Shown here piece after piece: positions 33,192 through 38,228 of a stretch of DNA of 64,000 nt. Under the pieces are notes generated by a model. It was not told the DNA's origin. It saw only the letters and a program-made list of their open reading frames with translations, and did no database searches. The translations under genes were made by a program, and so were the position numbers. Source of the DNA: Sphaerisporangium album (GTDB taxonomy: Bacteria > Actinomycetota > Actinomycetes > Streptosporangiales > Streptosporangiaceae); the NCBI RefSeq assembly GCF_003323745.1, contig NZ_QOIL01000003.1, positions 496,001 to 560,000 of the forward strand, given 5' to 3'. Within the stretch, counting starts at the first letter, position 1; every line of letters starts with the position of its first letter.

Positions 33192-33661
33192 CGCCGCCGA
33201 CGCGGCGGGGCTACGCGACGAGATGTCCGGCCTTCGCCGAACGCCTCCGCCTCGCGGGCGCCTAGGGCGGTGACCACGAAGGCTCACCGGCTCGCCAGTG
33301 CGGTGACCGCACAGGTTCACCGGCTCGTCCGATTCCTTCGCCGGTGTGGGTCTTCGTATCCGGCGCCGGTCGGCGAGAAGGGACGACGGTGATGTCGGCG
33401 CCTTCGTGCGGCGAGAACCCGGTGAACGTTCGTGCTCACAGCACCAGCTGTACCGGCGCCGTATCGACCCGTTCAGGGACCCTGTAGCGACCCTGTATCG
33501 ACCGGGACCGGCCGCGGACTACTCCCGGGGACGTACAGGAGGGGCGGGCCCGCGGTCCCGGTGGCGTAGGCGGTCGGCCTCTGCGAGGGGGACGCCCCGG
33601 GACGGCGATTGGGACACCATCCACGGTGACCACCTAATGAAGCCTAGAAAAAGGGGGAACC
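33192..33661. other. Intergenic region with two tandem hairpin repeats
   Basis: 470 bp without a supported gene. Two 28-bp direct repeats (33267-33294 and 33300-33327, four mismatches) each contain CGGTGA-N10-TCACCG, so two similar hairpins stand in tandem. Farther on, near 33460-33500, GTATCGACC / GTAGCGACC / GTATCGACC occur as three close repeats. These may be operator or leader elements for the copper-oxidase operon that follows. Confidence 0.5.
33267..33327. repeat. Tandem 28-bp repeats forming two hairpins
   Basis: Two copies separated by 5 bp, 24 of 28 bases identical; both preserve CGGTGA and TCACCG arms while the 10-nt loop varies, which suggests the paired arms are what is conserved. 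Confidence 0.6.
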
Positions 33662-34102
33662 GTGCGCAGGGTCTACGCCGTCCTCGCCGGCCTGCTGTTG
33701 CTCGCCGTGATCGCGCAGTTCTACTTCGCGGCCGTCGGCGCGTTCGACAAGCCGCAGGAGGACGGCTCGTTCAGCCTCCACAGCCTCACCGGGATGATGG
33801 TGATCCCCGTGCTGTCACTGCTGGCCACCATCGCCGCCGCCGTCGCGAAGGCCCCCGGCCGCCTGATCGGGATGACCATCCTGCCGCTCGGCCTGGTCAT
33901 CGTGCAGGTGCTGATCATCGTGCTCGGCGACGCGCTCAACGACAGCGCCGACAACACCACCACAGGAAGCCTGGTCATCCTGGGACTCCACGCCCTCAAC
34001 GGCCTCGCCATCATGGGCGTGAGCGGCATGGTGTTCCGCCAGGCACGCCTGCTCGCGGCGAGCACGACGCCCGCCCCGGGCACCGCCGCACGCGTCGCAT
34101 GA
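33662..34102 (+). CDS. Four-helix membrane protein (DUF6220-like)
   Basis: 146 aa, GTG start with AAAGGGGG upstream. Four hydrophobic helices: VYAVLAGLLLLAVIAQFYFA, GMMVIPVLSLLATIAAAV, LIGMTILPLGLVIVQVLIIV and LGLHALNGLAIMGVSGMV. His residues in SLHSLTG and GLHALNG are placed in helices and could bind heme or metal. The stop overlaps the multicopper oxidase start by 4 nt (ATGA), so the two products probably work together. Function unknown. Confidence 0.75.
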   Translation: MRRVYAVLAGLLLLAVIAQFYFAAVGAFDKPQEDGSFSLHSLTGMMVIPVLSLLATIAAAVAKAPGRLIGMTILPLGLVIVQVLIIVLGDALNDSADNTTTGSLVILGLHALNGLAIMGVSGMVFRQARLLAASTTPAPGTAARVA

Positions 34103-36237
34103 CGGTCGAGACGCTCCTCGTCCTCGACCTGCTCGCGGGGGTCGTGGCCACGGCGGGCTGGCTGGGCGCGGGCGCGACGGCGGCGGCACACCGCTCGCTC
34201 GTCGCCCTCCCCCTCGCCGCCCTGGCCCTGGCCGCGACCCTCGCCCGCTGCGCGCTGACGATCCCCCTCGCCGGTGCCGGCTGGTGGTTCGTCCAGGAGA
34301 AACTCAGCCTCACCCTGCCCCTGGCGCTCATCGGTGCCCTGACTGGGGCCGTCCTCGCGGTCCCCCGCCTGCTCGCGGCCACCCGCCGCCGCACGGCAGC
34401 ATCCGCCGACGCGTCCGGCGGTTCCGGCGCTCCGGGTGGTCCCGGCGACGCCGCCGAAGCACCCGGCCTCACCGACTCACGCGCCCCCGCGCGGGTCGTC
34501 GTGCCGCTCTTCGGCGCGGGGTACGCCGCGGCGGCGGGCCCTGTGGTCTCGCTCCTGATCGGTTATCCCATGACGCCGGGCGCGGCCCTGATCACGGTGG
34601 CCCTCACGGCGGCGGCGATCCTGGCGACCTGGCGCATGGTGGCCGGACGCCTGCCCTTGGCGCGCGTGACCGTGGCCACGGCCGTCGCCGTGGGCCTGGC
34701 CGGCACCGGGCTGGCGTTCGTCCCGGCCGACGCGATCGACACCGGCGGCGGCCCCGCGAGCGCCCACTCCTCAGGCGCCACCATGCCGGAAATGTCGCCC
34801 AGCGCGATTTCCGGCGCACCATCTCATGCGATGCCCGGCATGCCCTCCGGCACCGTGACGAGCGCGTCGTCCCACACGGCCCCCGACCAGCCCGTGACCG
34901 CGTTCCGTGGCCCCTCCACGCCCGAGCCGGGAGGGACGATTCGCCGGTACGCCCTGACCGCGCGCACGGCGACCGTCCGGCTCGCCTCGGGGCGTCAGGT
35001 CGAAGCGTGGACCTTCAACGGCACCGTGCCCGGCCCTCCGATCACCGCCACCCAGGGCGACCTCGTCGAGGTGAAGCTGCACAACGCCGACATCGCCTCG
35101 GGCGTGACCCTCCACTGGCACGGCTACGACGTCCCCGCCGGCGAGGACGGCGTGCCCGGCCTCACCCAGGAGGCCGTCATGCCCGGCCAGGAGTTCACGT
35201 ACCGCTTCCGCGCCCTACAGGCCGGCACGTACTGGTACCACACGCACGAGGTCTCCGACCTGGGCGTCCGCATGGGCCTGTACGGAACGCTGGTGGTGTC
35301 TCCGCGCCCCGCGTCCGGCGGCACCCCCGCCGAGACGACCGGCACCGGCACCGGCGAGACGTCCGGTACGCGCGCACGGAACGCCGTGGATCTCACCCTC
35401 CCGGCGCACACCTTCGCCGGTACGACCGCGCTCGGCGACCAGGACCGCCCGTTCACCCGGCAGGTCGCGCCCGGCAGCCCCGTACGCCTGCGGCTGGTCA
35501 ACACCGACAACACGCCGCGCGGGTTCGCCCTCAGCGGCGCGGCGTTCCGGGTCGCGAGCATCGACGGCCGCGACCTGAACCGGCCGGGCGAGCTGAACCG
35601 GACGCGCCTGCGCCTCCCCGCCGGGGGACGCTACGACCTCGTCTTCCCCATGCCGCCCGGCCAAGCCGTCCTTCTCGTGGACGACCGCCCGGCCCTCACG
35701 CTCACGCCCGGTGGCCCGGCGCCGGCCGCTCCCGCCGAGAAGACCGCCGCCTGGCCGGAGTTCGACCCTCTGTCCTACGGCGGCCCGGCCCCGACGCCGT
35801 TCGGCGCGGATGACCGCTTCGACCGCCGGTTCACGATGGTCCTGGACCGGGGCCTCGCCTTCTCGAACGGCAGCCCGATGTACGCGCACACGGTCAACGG
35901 CCGCGCGTTCCCGTCCATCCCGACGCAGCTCGTCCGCAAGGGCGACCTCGTCCACATGACCGTGGTCAACAGGGGCCGCGACACGCACCCCTGGCACCTG
36001 CACGGCCACACGGTCCTGGTCCTGTCGCGCGACGGGCGCGAACCGTCCGGCTCTCCCCTGTGGATGGACACGTTCGACGTCCAGCCCGGCCAGGTCTGGG
36101 AGGTCGCCTTCCGCGCCGACAATCCGGGCATCTGGATGAACCACTGCCACAACCTCAGCCACGCGGACATGGGCATGGCCCTCCACCTCGACTACGACGG
36201 CGTGACGACCCCCTTCCACGGCGCACACGGCGGCTGA
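34099..36237 (+). CDS. Membrane-fused multicopper oxidase
   Basis: 712 aa. Residues 1-210 form about six transmembrane helices. A linker at 222-262 is rich in Met and His (HSSGATMPEMSP, SHAMPGMPS), typical of copper handling. Cupredoxin domains follow with HWHG (339-342), HTH (381-383), HPWHLHGH (630-637) and HCHNLSHADMGM (682-693), giving complete type 1, 2 and 3 copper sites with Met as axial ligand. Likely an extracellular copper oxidase anchored in the membrane. It is co-translated with the preceding four-helix protein. Confidence 0.9.
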   Translation: MTVETLLVLDLLAGVVATAGWLGAGATAAAHRSLVALPLAALALAATLARCALTIPLAGAGWWFVQEKLSLTLPLALIGALTGAVLAVPRLLAATRRRTAASADASGGSGAPGGPGDAAEAPGLTDSRAPARVVVPLFGAGYAAAAGPVVSLLIGYPMTPGAALITVALTAAAILATWRMVAGRLPLARVTVATAVAVGLAGTGLAFVPADAIDTGGGPASAHSSGATMPEMSPSAISGAPSHAMPGMPSGTVTSASSHTAPDQPVTAFRGPSTPEPGGTIRRYALTARTATVRLASGRQVEAWTFNGTVPGPPITATQGDLVEVKLHNADIASGVTLHWHGYDVPAGEDGVPGLTQEAVMPGQEFTYRFRALQAGTYWYHTHEVSDLGVRMGLYGTLVVSPRPASGGTPAETTGTGTGETSGTRARNAVDLTLPAHTFAGTTALGDQDRPFTRQVAPGSPVRLRLVNTDNTPRGFALSGAAFRVASIDGRDLNRPGELNRTRLRLPAGGRYDLVFPMPPGQAVLLVDDRPALTLTPGGPAPAAPAEKTAAWPEFDPLSYGGPAPTPFGADDRFDRRFTMVLDRGLAFSNGSPMYAHTVNGRAFPSIPTQLVRKGDLVHMTVVNRGRDTHPWHLHGHTVLVLSRDGREPSGSPLWMDTFDVQPGQVWEVAFRADNPGIWMNHCHNLSHADMGMALHLDYDGVTTPFHGAHGG

Positions 36238-36356: not shown

Positions 36357-38036
36357 TCAGGAGAAGCCGAGGCGGGCCAGGGGTTCGACCAGTTCGCGTT
36401 CCTCGTAGGAGAGGTGGGACAGCAGGGCGTCGGTGAGGAGGTCCACGGCGGCCTGGAGGGACTTCAGGCCATCGGGCTCGGTCACCAGCGCGACCAGCGC
36501 CCGGTCGACGCCTTCGAGGACGTCGTGGATCACGTGGTGTTCCCGCTCAAGCCGGTCGACCACCGGCGCGAGCTCGGGCATGGCATGGCGAAGGTGGGGG
36601 AAGACGCCGACGTCCTCCATGGTGTGGTGGGTGGTGACCACCCGGCAGTACTGCTGGCAGTAGACGCCGAGCGTCCAGTTGTTCTGCCGCATGGTCATCT
36701 CGTTGATCTGGGAGCGGGCCGTCCCGGGGTCCATCGTTCCGGCCGCCACCTGCTCGACGAGCCCGCGCAGCGTGCGCAGCTCCTCTCGGAGGTGGTCGTG
36801 CACGTCGATGAGGTGGCGGCCCGCGGCCTGCTCGTGCGCGGTGTAGCGGCGGTTCGGGTCGGGCGCGGGGCCGGTCGGGCGGGTCGTCTCGTCCCAGACC
36901 CGCACGTCGCTGAGCCGGGTGCCGTCGTCCGGGGTCGGCACGACCGCGAGCGCCGAGGTGGGGACGGCGGGCCGGACGCGGATGGCCGAGCTGGAGGAGG
37001 TGGACGAGGCGGTGGCCGGTGAGGCAGTGGCCGCCGAGGTCGCCTTCGGTGACGACGCGTCCGGCGAGGTCGCGGATACCACGGCCTGCTCCCGGTCATC
37101 GGCCGCGCTGCCCGGCCGTGGGTCGTCCGACGGCGGCGGGTCGGTCCGCCCGGCCCGCTCGGTCGCGACCAGCTCCTGGACGGCGGGGGCTACCTCGGCC
37201 GCGAAGCGGCGGATCACGTCCGGGTCGTCGCCTATCAGGATGTAGCCGCTCATGCCCTGCGTGAGGGTGAGTTCGGCGAGCTGCTCGGCCCACACGTGCG
37301 CGGGCCCGTCGAGGAAGCCGGTCCCGCGGCCGTCGAACGTGCCGCTGACGTTGTACAGCCGCCGCACGTCGGAGGGCTGGCGCCCGGCCTCCAGCGCGGC
37401 CTCGTCGATCATCGCGTTCATCGCGGGCAGCTCGCCAGGCCCCGCGTACGGGCTGCTGGGCAGCCATCCGTCGGCGAGCCGTCCGGTCAGCGCGAGCATG
37501 CGCTTCTTGTACGAGCCCACCCAGATGCCCACGTCGTGGGCCGGTGCGGGGCCGGGGTGGGCGCCCCATACGCGGTAGTGCGCGCCGTCCACGCGGACCG
37601 TCCCGCCGTCGGGCGACCATATCGCCCGGATGATCTCGATGGCCTCTTCCAAGGCATCGACGGCCTGGGCCGAGGTGAGCCGCCGTCCGCCCATCGCGGC
37701 CACGCCATCCCAGAACGCCCCGGCGCCGAGGCCGAGCTCCACCCGCCCTCCGCTGAGGATGTCGAGGGTGGCGACGCTGCGGGCGAGCACGGCCGGGGGC
37801 CGCAGGGGCAGGTTGGCCACGTTCGGGGAGACGCGCACGGTCGACGTAGCGGCGGCGATGACCGACAGCAGCGTCCAGGTGTCCAGGAACCGCGCCTGGT
37901 AGGGATGGTCCTGGACGGTCACCAGATCCAGGCCCACCTGCTCGGTCAGCCGAGCGAGCGCGACGACGCGATCGGCCTGGCCCGCGTCTGGGGTGATGAA
38001 CGTTCCGAACAGCAGCTCGTGCCCGTAGTCGGCCAT
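36357..38036 (-). CDS. LLM-class flavin/F420 oxidoreductase fused to hemerythrin domain
   Basis: 559 aa from ATG 38036 (GGGAAG upstream). Residues 1 to about 310 are a luciferase-like TIM barrel (FGTFITPDAGQADRV, LVTVQDHPYQARFLDTWTLL, GGRVELGLGAGAFW, VGIWVGSYKKRML) of the F420-dependent type. An 80-residue Ser/Ala/Thr linker follows, then a hemerythrin-like four-helix domain with iron ligands in IDVHDHLREE, TTHHTMEDVGVF, REHHVIHDVLE and SHLSYEERELV. The union of an oxidoreductase with an O2/NO- or redox-sensing di-iron domain is unusual. A clear promoter lies at 38080-38107. Substrate unknown. Confidence 0.88.
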   Translation of the reverse strand: MADYGHELLFGTFITPDAGQADRVVALARLTEQVGLDLVTVQDHPYQARFLDTWTLLSVIAAATSTVRVSPNVANLPLRPPAVLARSVATLDILSGGRVELGLGAGAFWDGVAAMGGRRLTSAQAVDALEEAIEIIRAIWSPDGGTVRVDGAHYRVWGAHPGPAPAHDVGIWVGSYKKRMLALTGRLADGWLPSSPYAGPGELPAMNAMIDEAALEAGRQPSDVRRLYNVSGTFDGRGTGFLDGPAHVWAEQLAELTLTQGMSGYILIGDDPDVIRRFAAEVAPAVQELVATERAGRTDPPPSDDPRPGSAADDREQAVVSATSPDASSPKATSAATASPATASSTSSSSAIRVRPAVPTSALAVVPTPDDGTRLSDVRVWDETTRPTGPAPDPNRRYTAHEQAAGRHLIDVHDHLREELRTLRGLVEQVAAGTMDPGTARSQINEMTMRQNNWTLGVYCQQYCRVVTTHHTMEDVGVFPHLRHAMPELAPVVDRLEREHHVIHDVLEGVDRALVALVTEPDGLKSLQAAVDLLTDALLSHLSYEERELVEPLARLGFS

Positions 38037-38079
38037 GTCGCTTCCCGTCGTCTCCGTCAAAGTAGTCGATGCACCGCAG

Positions 38080-38107
38080 ATGTTATGCCAAACAGAAGAG
38101 TTGTCAA
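38080..38107 (-). promoter_or_regulatory. Promoter of the LLM-hemerythrin gene with direct repeats
   Basis: On the minus strand, TTGACA (38107-38102), 16-nt spacer, TAACAT (38085-38080). A 10-bp direct repeat, CTTCTGTTTG on that strand, occurs at 38114-38105 and 38098-38089, spaced by 16 bp and overlapping the -35 and the spacer, so it looks like a repressor or activator site. Confidence 0.7.
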
Positions 38108-38228
38108 ACAGAAGGTTTACCATCTCACCAATCCCCCGACCGAACCCCGCGCAAGGCGAAGGTCCATAGTGGCCGGGGCTTCGCGTCGATACGCTTGGAG
38201 CCCGCGGTCGACGTGCATGGAGGAGCTC

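Follow-up and report, generated by a model that had tools for sequence, protein, structure and literature searches.

A luciferase-family oxidoreductase joined to a putative di-iron hemerythrin-like domain in actinomycetes, with an operator-like repeat array at its promoter

Gene structure and start site

The window, i.e., the whole 64,000-nucleotide stretch of Sphaerisporangium album DNA analysed here, encodes on its reverse strand a protein in which two Pfam domains exceeded their gathering cut-offs: Bac_luciferase (PF00296; residues 14–229, E = 1.3e-44, 153.3 bits against a cut-off of 27.9) and Hemerythrin (PF01814; residues 409–550, E = 1e-13, 52.3 bits against 25.3). A preliminary description had read this open reading frame as a luciferase-like (LLM) barrel fused to a hemerythrin domain and the sequence bears this out: the gene (hereafter LLM-Hr) unites a luciferase-family oxidoreductase with a putative di-iron hemerythrin-like domain. 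The span then given, 36357–38107, covers the gene and extends to the -35 box. The features of the locus are collected in Table 1.

Table 1. Features of the LLM-Hr locus, with coordinates counted from the first base of the window.
Feature	Position	Strand	Basis
LLM-Hr CDS, luciferase-like/hemerythrin fusion, 559 aa, stop included	36357..38036	-	ORF, homologues, Pfam
LLM (Bac_luciferase) TIM-barrel domain, residues 1–290	37167..38036	-	Pfam, fold matches
Low-complexity Ala/Pro/Ser/Thr-rich linker, residues 291–357	36966..37166	-	Alignment, pLDDT
Hemerythrin-like domain with conserved N-terminal segment, residues 358–559, five helices in model	36360..36965	-	
Loop residues 449–462 (MRQNNWTLGxYC), directly before helix HHxxED	36651..36692	-	Conservation, models
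Sigma-70-like promoter TTGACA-N16-TAACAT, overlapped by proposed operator	38080..38107	-	
Proposed MarR operator, TCTG boxes of 16-bp period	38077..38114	-	Repeat, shuffles, genome pattern counts
Divergent Ser/Thr protein kinase, in place of the MarR gene of loci L009–L012	38229..39917	+	

Translation most likely begins at 38036. A start codon was present at the aligned position, or no more than one codon away, in all 80 homologues (the script having taken the nearest start codon), and a longer listed reading frame starting at 38123 would read through the promoter. The flexible linker was there as described, but not its length of 80 residues; the unconserved part is nearer 67 residues, because residues 358–395 are partly conserved and fold with the hemerythrin domain in the model.

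A multicopper oxidase gene is convergent with LLM-Hr (33346–36237); its listed GTG start is probably too early, since Met codon 252 (in frame, at 34099) opens a membrane-like N-terminus. Neither this gene nor the kinase was recognised among the 25 groups of neighbouring genes listed for homologous loci, groups that were partly annotated.

Conservation and origin of the fusion

A scan of the genome collection identified 199 stretches encoding a relative, of which the best 80 were kept as loci. The two-domain protein was full-length in all 80 (482–572 residues, 53–82% identity), so that conserved two-domain homologues, the absence of which would have told against the fusion, were found throughout. 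The fusion is widespread, occurring in many actinomycete species; the record titles include Sphaerisporangium, Streptosporangium, Nonomuraea, Pseudonocardia, Kribbella, Micromonospora, Actinoplanes, Nocardioides and Lentzea. Eighteen plasmid records also matched, 14 with at least 80% coverage, all of these from Streptomyces, and four shorter (H15–H18), of which H15 and H17 were inspected. The plasmid gene table labels these proteins just 'LLM class flavin-dependent oxidoreductase'. No paper on the fusion was found in the open-licence PMC text, and the relevant passages of PMC5712208 and PMC3188489 do not describe it; the survey of hemerythrins in PMC4919030 counted 56 domain architectures, and the word 'luciferase' does not occur in its main text.

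Conservation was concentrated in the two domains, where the mean frequency of the commonest residue was 0.73 and 0.76, against 0.24–0.25 in the linker. Counted from residue 290 to 375, the linker varied between 22 and 101 residues in 81 sequences (median 45), and in the whole-protein model its residues 308–354 had pLDDT below 50.

Phylogenetic analysis of the LLM domains (FastTree; 82 fused proteins with LLM-only and other-fusion outgroups) placed all of the fused proteins in a single clade with support of 0.947, together with one LLM-only protein from Nonomuraea gerenzanensis. The latter grouped inside the clade with four fused Nonomuraea proteins (support 0.935), and so it has probably lost its hemerythrin domain. 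The single-domain Tsukamurella protein, the other member of the LLM-Hr group found to lack hemerythrin, fell outside the fused clade, as did an LLM domain fused to a FAD_binding_4/BBE oxidase. This topology suggests that, among the sampled proteins, the fusion arose once and was followed by one loss. The gene for the LLM-FAD oxidase, in which the LLM domain is joined to a berberine-bridge-type FAD oxidase (FAD_binding_4, BBE), lies at L108:3909-6152 in N. gerenzanensis, directly downstream of the LLM-only gene.

The hemerythrin-like domain

The pattern H, HxxxE, H, HxxxE characterises the ligands of hemerythrin-like di-iron proteins. In LLM-Hr it corresponds to H413, H470–E474, H500 and H541–E545, and these positions, along with H471, E546, C460, Y463 and C464, were identical in all 81 sequences, in agreement with the His/Glu ligands that had been pointed out from a single sequence; they are putative ligands of a di-iron site. 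H504 was kept in 77 of the 81 sequences and missing in four. With respect to oxygen binding, the HxxxH of helix 3 was consequently present in 77 sequences, while the HxxxxD of helix 4 has E546 in place of D in all 81; this fails the strict form, but fits the motif of PMC4295536, which is written there with D/E allowed, as far as the residues themselves are concerned.

The whole-protein model (mean pLDDT 85.7, pTM 0.61) matched solely LLM-type enzymes among the 50 matches listed, and for this reason the C-terminal 202 residues were also modelled alone. This produced five helices with a pTM of 0.85, in which segment 358–395 was ordered in the absence of the barrel. A Foldseek search with the domain model returned no match below E = 0.001. 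The best matches by VIA-align were 2p0n (Z = 12.8) and 3cax (Z = 12.4), both of which we take to be hemerythrin-like, followed by the DcrH hemerythrin (Z = 10.8); designed or unrelated bundles scored little below 2p0n and 3cax, at Z = 9–12. Since these fold matches are moderate at best, the assignment to hemerythrin rests on the Pfam score and the ligands. The YtfE profile (RIC iron-centre repair) matched weakly (E about 0.08). A profile match to p53 (E = 0.05) was set aside as chance.

The loop at residues 449–462, largely near-invariant, was unordered in the whole-protein model (pLDDT below 50), as were residues 449–459 in the domain model; the models were built with 44 and 52 related sequences and this disorder may reflect a lack of depth. 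From the models, the loop is a possible lid.

The LLM barrel and its cofactor

Among the 50 matches listed, the closest solved folds to the barrel were the F420-dependent enzyme Mer (8qpl, Z = 33.1; 1z69, Z = 31.9); FMN enzymes trailed by less than two Z units (8t0w, Z = 31.4). Among the best 25 of the 31 NCBIfam models matched, the top scores belonged to F420-type models (up to 119.7 bits), and no model of a different type exceeded 45.7 bits; within the same 25, no F420 subfamily cut-off was reached (TIGR03560, 119.7 of 231.4 bits; TIGR03619, 119.1 of 166.9; Mer, 83.7 of 348.7).

Genes for F420 synthesis were surveyed in 68 genomes, comprising 67 bearers of the fusion reached through the 80 loci and the S. 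album genome itself. Because the cofD model also scores weakly in unrelated control genomes, only matches over its cut-off were counted, and these occurred in 63 of the 68. Partial matches were obtained for two genomes (G014, G057) and the profile search gave no match for three (G019, G023, G062). cofG was not over its cut-off in G014, G019 and G023. G023 (a metagenome-assembled genome of 2.9 Mb) and G062 (a many-contig draft) also gave no cofE match, and the missing cofD and cofE of these two may be gaps. The S. album genome had cofD, cofG and cofE, all over their cut-offs. Many actinomycetes make F420 and the survey covered bearer genomes only, for which reasons the co-occurrence carries little weight. 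On balance, F420 is the likely cofactor over FMN, favoured by the profile scores and weakly by co-occurrence.

Sanguibacter (G019) was considered as a bearer free of F420, having neither a cofD match nor cofG over the cut-off. It does have cofE over the cut-off (C11, L105), adjoining an FGD-like LLM gene that exceeded the F420_G6P cut-off and scored higher with a model labelled FMN-dependent. Its value as a counter-example is undercut by these two genes.

Promoter and repeat array

The promoter proposed in the preliminary description, TTGACA-N16-TAACAT, was present and was the sole promoter-like site in 2.7 kb (1, compared with 0.2 in shuffled sequence, sd 0.4). The 10-bp direct repeat spaced by 16 bp was also recovered, with an additional member: CTTCTGTTTG occurs twice, with starts 16 bp apart, these being its sole copies within the window, and a third, shorter box follows. 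TCTG boxes therefore lie at 38109–38112, 38093–38096 and 38077–38080, spanning -35 to -10, the upstream two extending to the full 10 bp. A general repeat-finding run listed no repeat at the promoter.

Of the 81 upstream regions (200 bp each), 15 contained TCTG-N12-TCTG; 200 mononucleotide shuffles gave 0.15 on average and never more than 2. In the 9.3-Mb S. album genome, the triple box TCTG-N12-TCTG-N12-TCTG had 26 matches and the reversed control one. Twenty-three fell in two tandem arrays, 8 in one and 15 in the other, two overlapped at the promoter of a MarR gene and one was at LLM-Hr; outside the tandem arrays, that is, the triple box occurred only at the LLM-Hr promoter and in the intergenic region between the nearest MarR homologue and a Flavodoxin_2/FMN_red gene. 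In close genomes, with the last box written as TYTG, it was found at the LLM-Hr promoter in four of four. These made up four of 10 matches in total; five of the other six came from a single genome, where three overlap, and the reversed control gave five. The two tandem arrays consist of TCTGAGGTACTGGGCT-like units of 16 bp (G000, C20:143441-143588 and C43:5225-5484).

A candidate regulator

As called by a crude gene caller, a MarR gene belonging to one BLAST-linked group was divergent upstream of LLM-Hr in 28 of the 80 loci, within 152 bp in 26 of these and at 639 and 801 bp in two. A second MarR group was divergent at 81–83 bp in two further loci. No main-group MarR was called upstream in the remaining 52 loci, or 50 counting the second group. 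The close relatives L009–L012 had both the MarR gene and the TCTG array. The nearest MarR in the S. album genome (C34:144488, 56% identity, the next best having 31%) is divergent from the Flavodoxin_2/FMN_red (azoreductase-like) gene, with the triple box at their shared promoter. The unusual triple array is thus common to the promoters of LLM-Hr and of this MarR gene, and the latter probably controls LLM-Hr in trans. Dedicated regulation, as originally implied by the repeat, is supported in a putative form by the operator-like array and the association with MarR genes.

MarR proteins of other bacteria control azoreductases. By analogy, the azoreductase-like partner suggests quinones or electrophiles as the inducing signal.

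Other neighbours were less frequent. In 18 of 80 loci (the Kribbella group), three of which also had MarR, LLM-Hr was preceded in the same orientation by a large, BTAD-type-looking regulator, and an HxlR-type gene was downstream in five of 80 (one checked with Pfam). On a Streptomyces plasmid (L107:1886-5545), a MarR gene is divergent from an MFS transporter that is followed by LLM-Hr, an efflux-like arrangement; the MarR/MFS intergenic region contains no TCTG box.

A second hemerythrin fusion

The S. album genome encodes another fusion on contig C10 (L101:2509-3342), a protein of 278 residues with F420H2_quin_red (124.9 bits) and Hemerythrin (66.7 bits) domains. The position of its CxxxC relative to HHxxED matches that in LLM-Hr, as it does in a hemerythrin-only protein (L102); of two other hemerythrins, L103 has the second Cys only and L104 neither. 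Nineteen plasmid records matched this fusion, seven covering at least 80%. A protein 68% identical to it is encoded on Streptomyces clavuligerus plasmids, adjoining a divergent Ser/Thr kinase gene. Of all the observations, the occurrence of similar modules on F420-type folds of two unrelated kinds hints most strongly at a common function.

Discussion

Our best explanation, offered tentatively and at somewhat below an even chance, is that LLM-Hr is an enzyme of redox stress under MarR control that probably depends on F420 and carries a di-iron scavenger on a tether; its cofactor, metal, signal and activity we infer. MarR would leave the promoter on meeting an electrophile, quinone or redox-cycling compound, which the LLM barrel would then reduce using the reduced deazaflavin F420H2 or, less likely, FMNH2. 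The di-iron domain on its tether, with the CxxxC close by, would clear away peroxide derived from O2, or NO, whether generated or encountered in the reaction, or may instead keep O2 off the reduced cofactor. The varying length of the tether suggests that the domains work alongside each other and not by way of a single fixed route for electrons; their relative placing in the model is uncertain, given a pTM of 0.61. What was observed is two intact, conserved domains, a variable tether, an array over the promoter and a MarR candidate with the same array; the divergent MarR genes at other loci, the second fusion, the MarR and MFS genes beside LLM-Hr on the Streptomyces plasmid and cofD in 63 of 68 genomes also speak for this explanation. 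Against it stand the F420 cut-offs that were not reached, Sanguibacter, the LLM-only forms, the 52 of 80 loci without a main-group MarR and the Streptomyces MarR/MFS promoter without the box.

The LLM barrel might instead be an FMN-dependent monooxygenase, acting on its substrate with FMNH2 and O2, for which hemerythrin would bind and hand over the O2 and the azoreductase-like protein, having the same predicted operator, would perhaps provide the FMNH2. An FMN fold is nearly as close as Mer (8t0w, Z = 31.4 against 33.1), one bearer lacks cofD and has no cofG over the cut-off, and H413, HxxxE, H500xxxH504 (77 of 81) and HxxxxE fit the motif of PMC4295536 with D/E allowed; a precedent for oxygen supply is McHr, reported in the relevant passages of PMC4919030 to serve methane monooxygenase. 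We consider this unlikely, since the top NCBIfam matches are F420-type (119.7 against 45.7 bits among the best 25 of 31), the last ligand is E546 and not D in all sequences, H504 is missing in four, and the same passages describe O2-binding hemerythrins as negligible in number in Actinobacteria. Furthermore, the F420-type quinone reductase has the same kind of domain, where O2 delivery makes little sense.

That second fusion bears more favourably on another alternative, in which LLM-Hr would by itself constitute an F420H2 oxidase, peroxidase or NO reductase and F420H2 (or FMNH2) would be oxidised through the di-iron site with CxxxC as a relay. Consistent with this, a single genome couples CxxxC hemerythrin to each of two unrelated F420-type folds, the CxxxC is identical in 81 of 81 sequences, the loop lacks order in the models and might act as a gate, and a mycobacterial hemerythrin-like protein is reported to be an NO peroxidase (in passages of PMC8913304); a tether of 22–101 residues, the existence of LLM-only forms and the lack of an evident flavin for one-electron steps make it rather unlikely. 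Quite improbable, as a broader proposal, is that actinomycetes joined CxxxC hemerythrin to unrelated F420-type reductases more than once, generating F420H2-driven di-iron oxidases, peroxidases or NO reductases. Methanogens possess an F420H2 oxidase, of which the proposed fusions would be an aerobic counterpart. The preliminary description suggested O2 or NO sensing, or the channelling of electrons. As a sensor, the hemerythrin domain would turn the LLM enzyme on or off in response to O2, NO or redox state, and sensor fusions such as DcrH and Bhr-DGC are reviewed in PMC9388753; we regard the sensor reading as very doubtful, for control appears to be located at the promoter, the model gave no sign of interdomain contact (pTM 0.61), and the relevant part of that review lists the ligands as five His with one Glu and one Asp, the Asp position being Glu here.

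The roles best known for hemerythrin domains are carrying O2, sensing and the repair of iron centres. The LLM-Hr fusion, widely conserved and with a probable F420 enzyme as partner, and the second fusion on an unrelated F420-type fold point to a shared use of F420H2 and di-iron in redox defence, and the LLM-Hr system supplies a candidate regulator and a promoter with which the inducing signal could be found.

Comparison with known systems

LLM-Hr resembles LLM class flavin-dependent oxidoreductases (PF00296; TIGR03560, TIGR03619, Mer) in barrel fold and family score, Mer being the nearest solved fold, and differs in falling under each subfamily cut-off (among the best 25 of 31 models matched) and in adding a C-terminal hemerythrin domain. 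With hemerythrin HHE proteins (PF01814) it shares a score over the Pfam cut-off and the conserved H, HxxxE, H, HxxxE; it departs from them in the fusion to an enzyme, the CxxxC, the RQNxW loop and a structural match that is only moderate. The hemerythrin-like protein of Mycobacterium kansasii, as described in passages of PMC8913304, appears from the model to have the five-helix core in common with LLM-Hr, but is monomeric and unfused, and its ligand set is called unique to the mycobacterial proteins. The relevant passages on a Streptomyces phenazine cluster (PMC5712208) offer a loose parallel, a hemerythrin gene and an LLM F420-type gene being separate there and fused here.

Closer in composition is the F420H2-dependent quinone reductase (PF04075)-hemerythrin protein, which likewise combines an F420-type enzyme with a CxxxC hemerythrin, although the enzyme family is unrelated, the linker short and the TCTG triple box absent. 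In DcrH and other hemerythrin sensor fusions (in the relevant passages of PMC9388753) the domain is also joined to another, and DcrH was among the fold matches; the partner in those proteins is a signalling or transport domain, whereas in LLM-Hr it is a metabolic enzyme.
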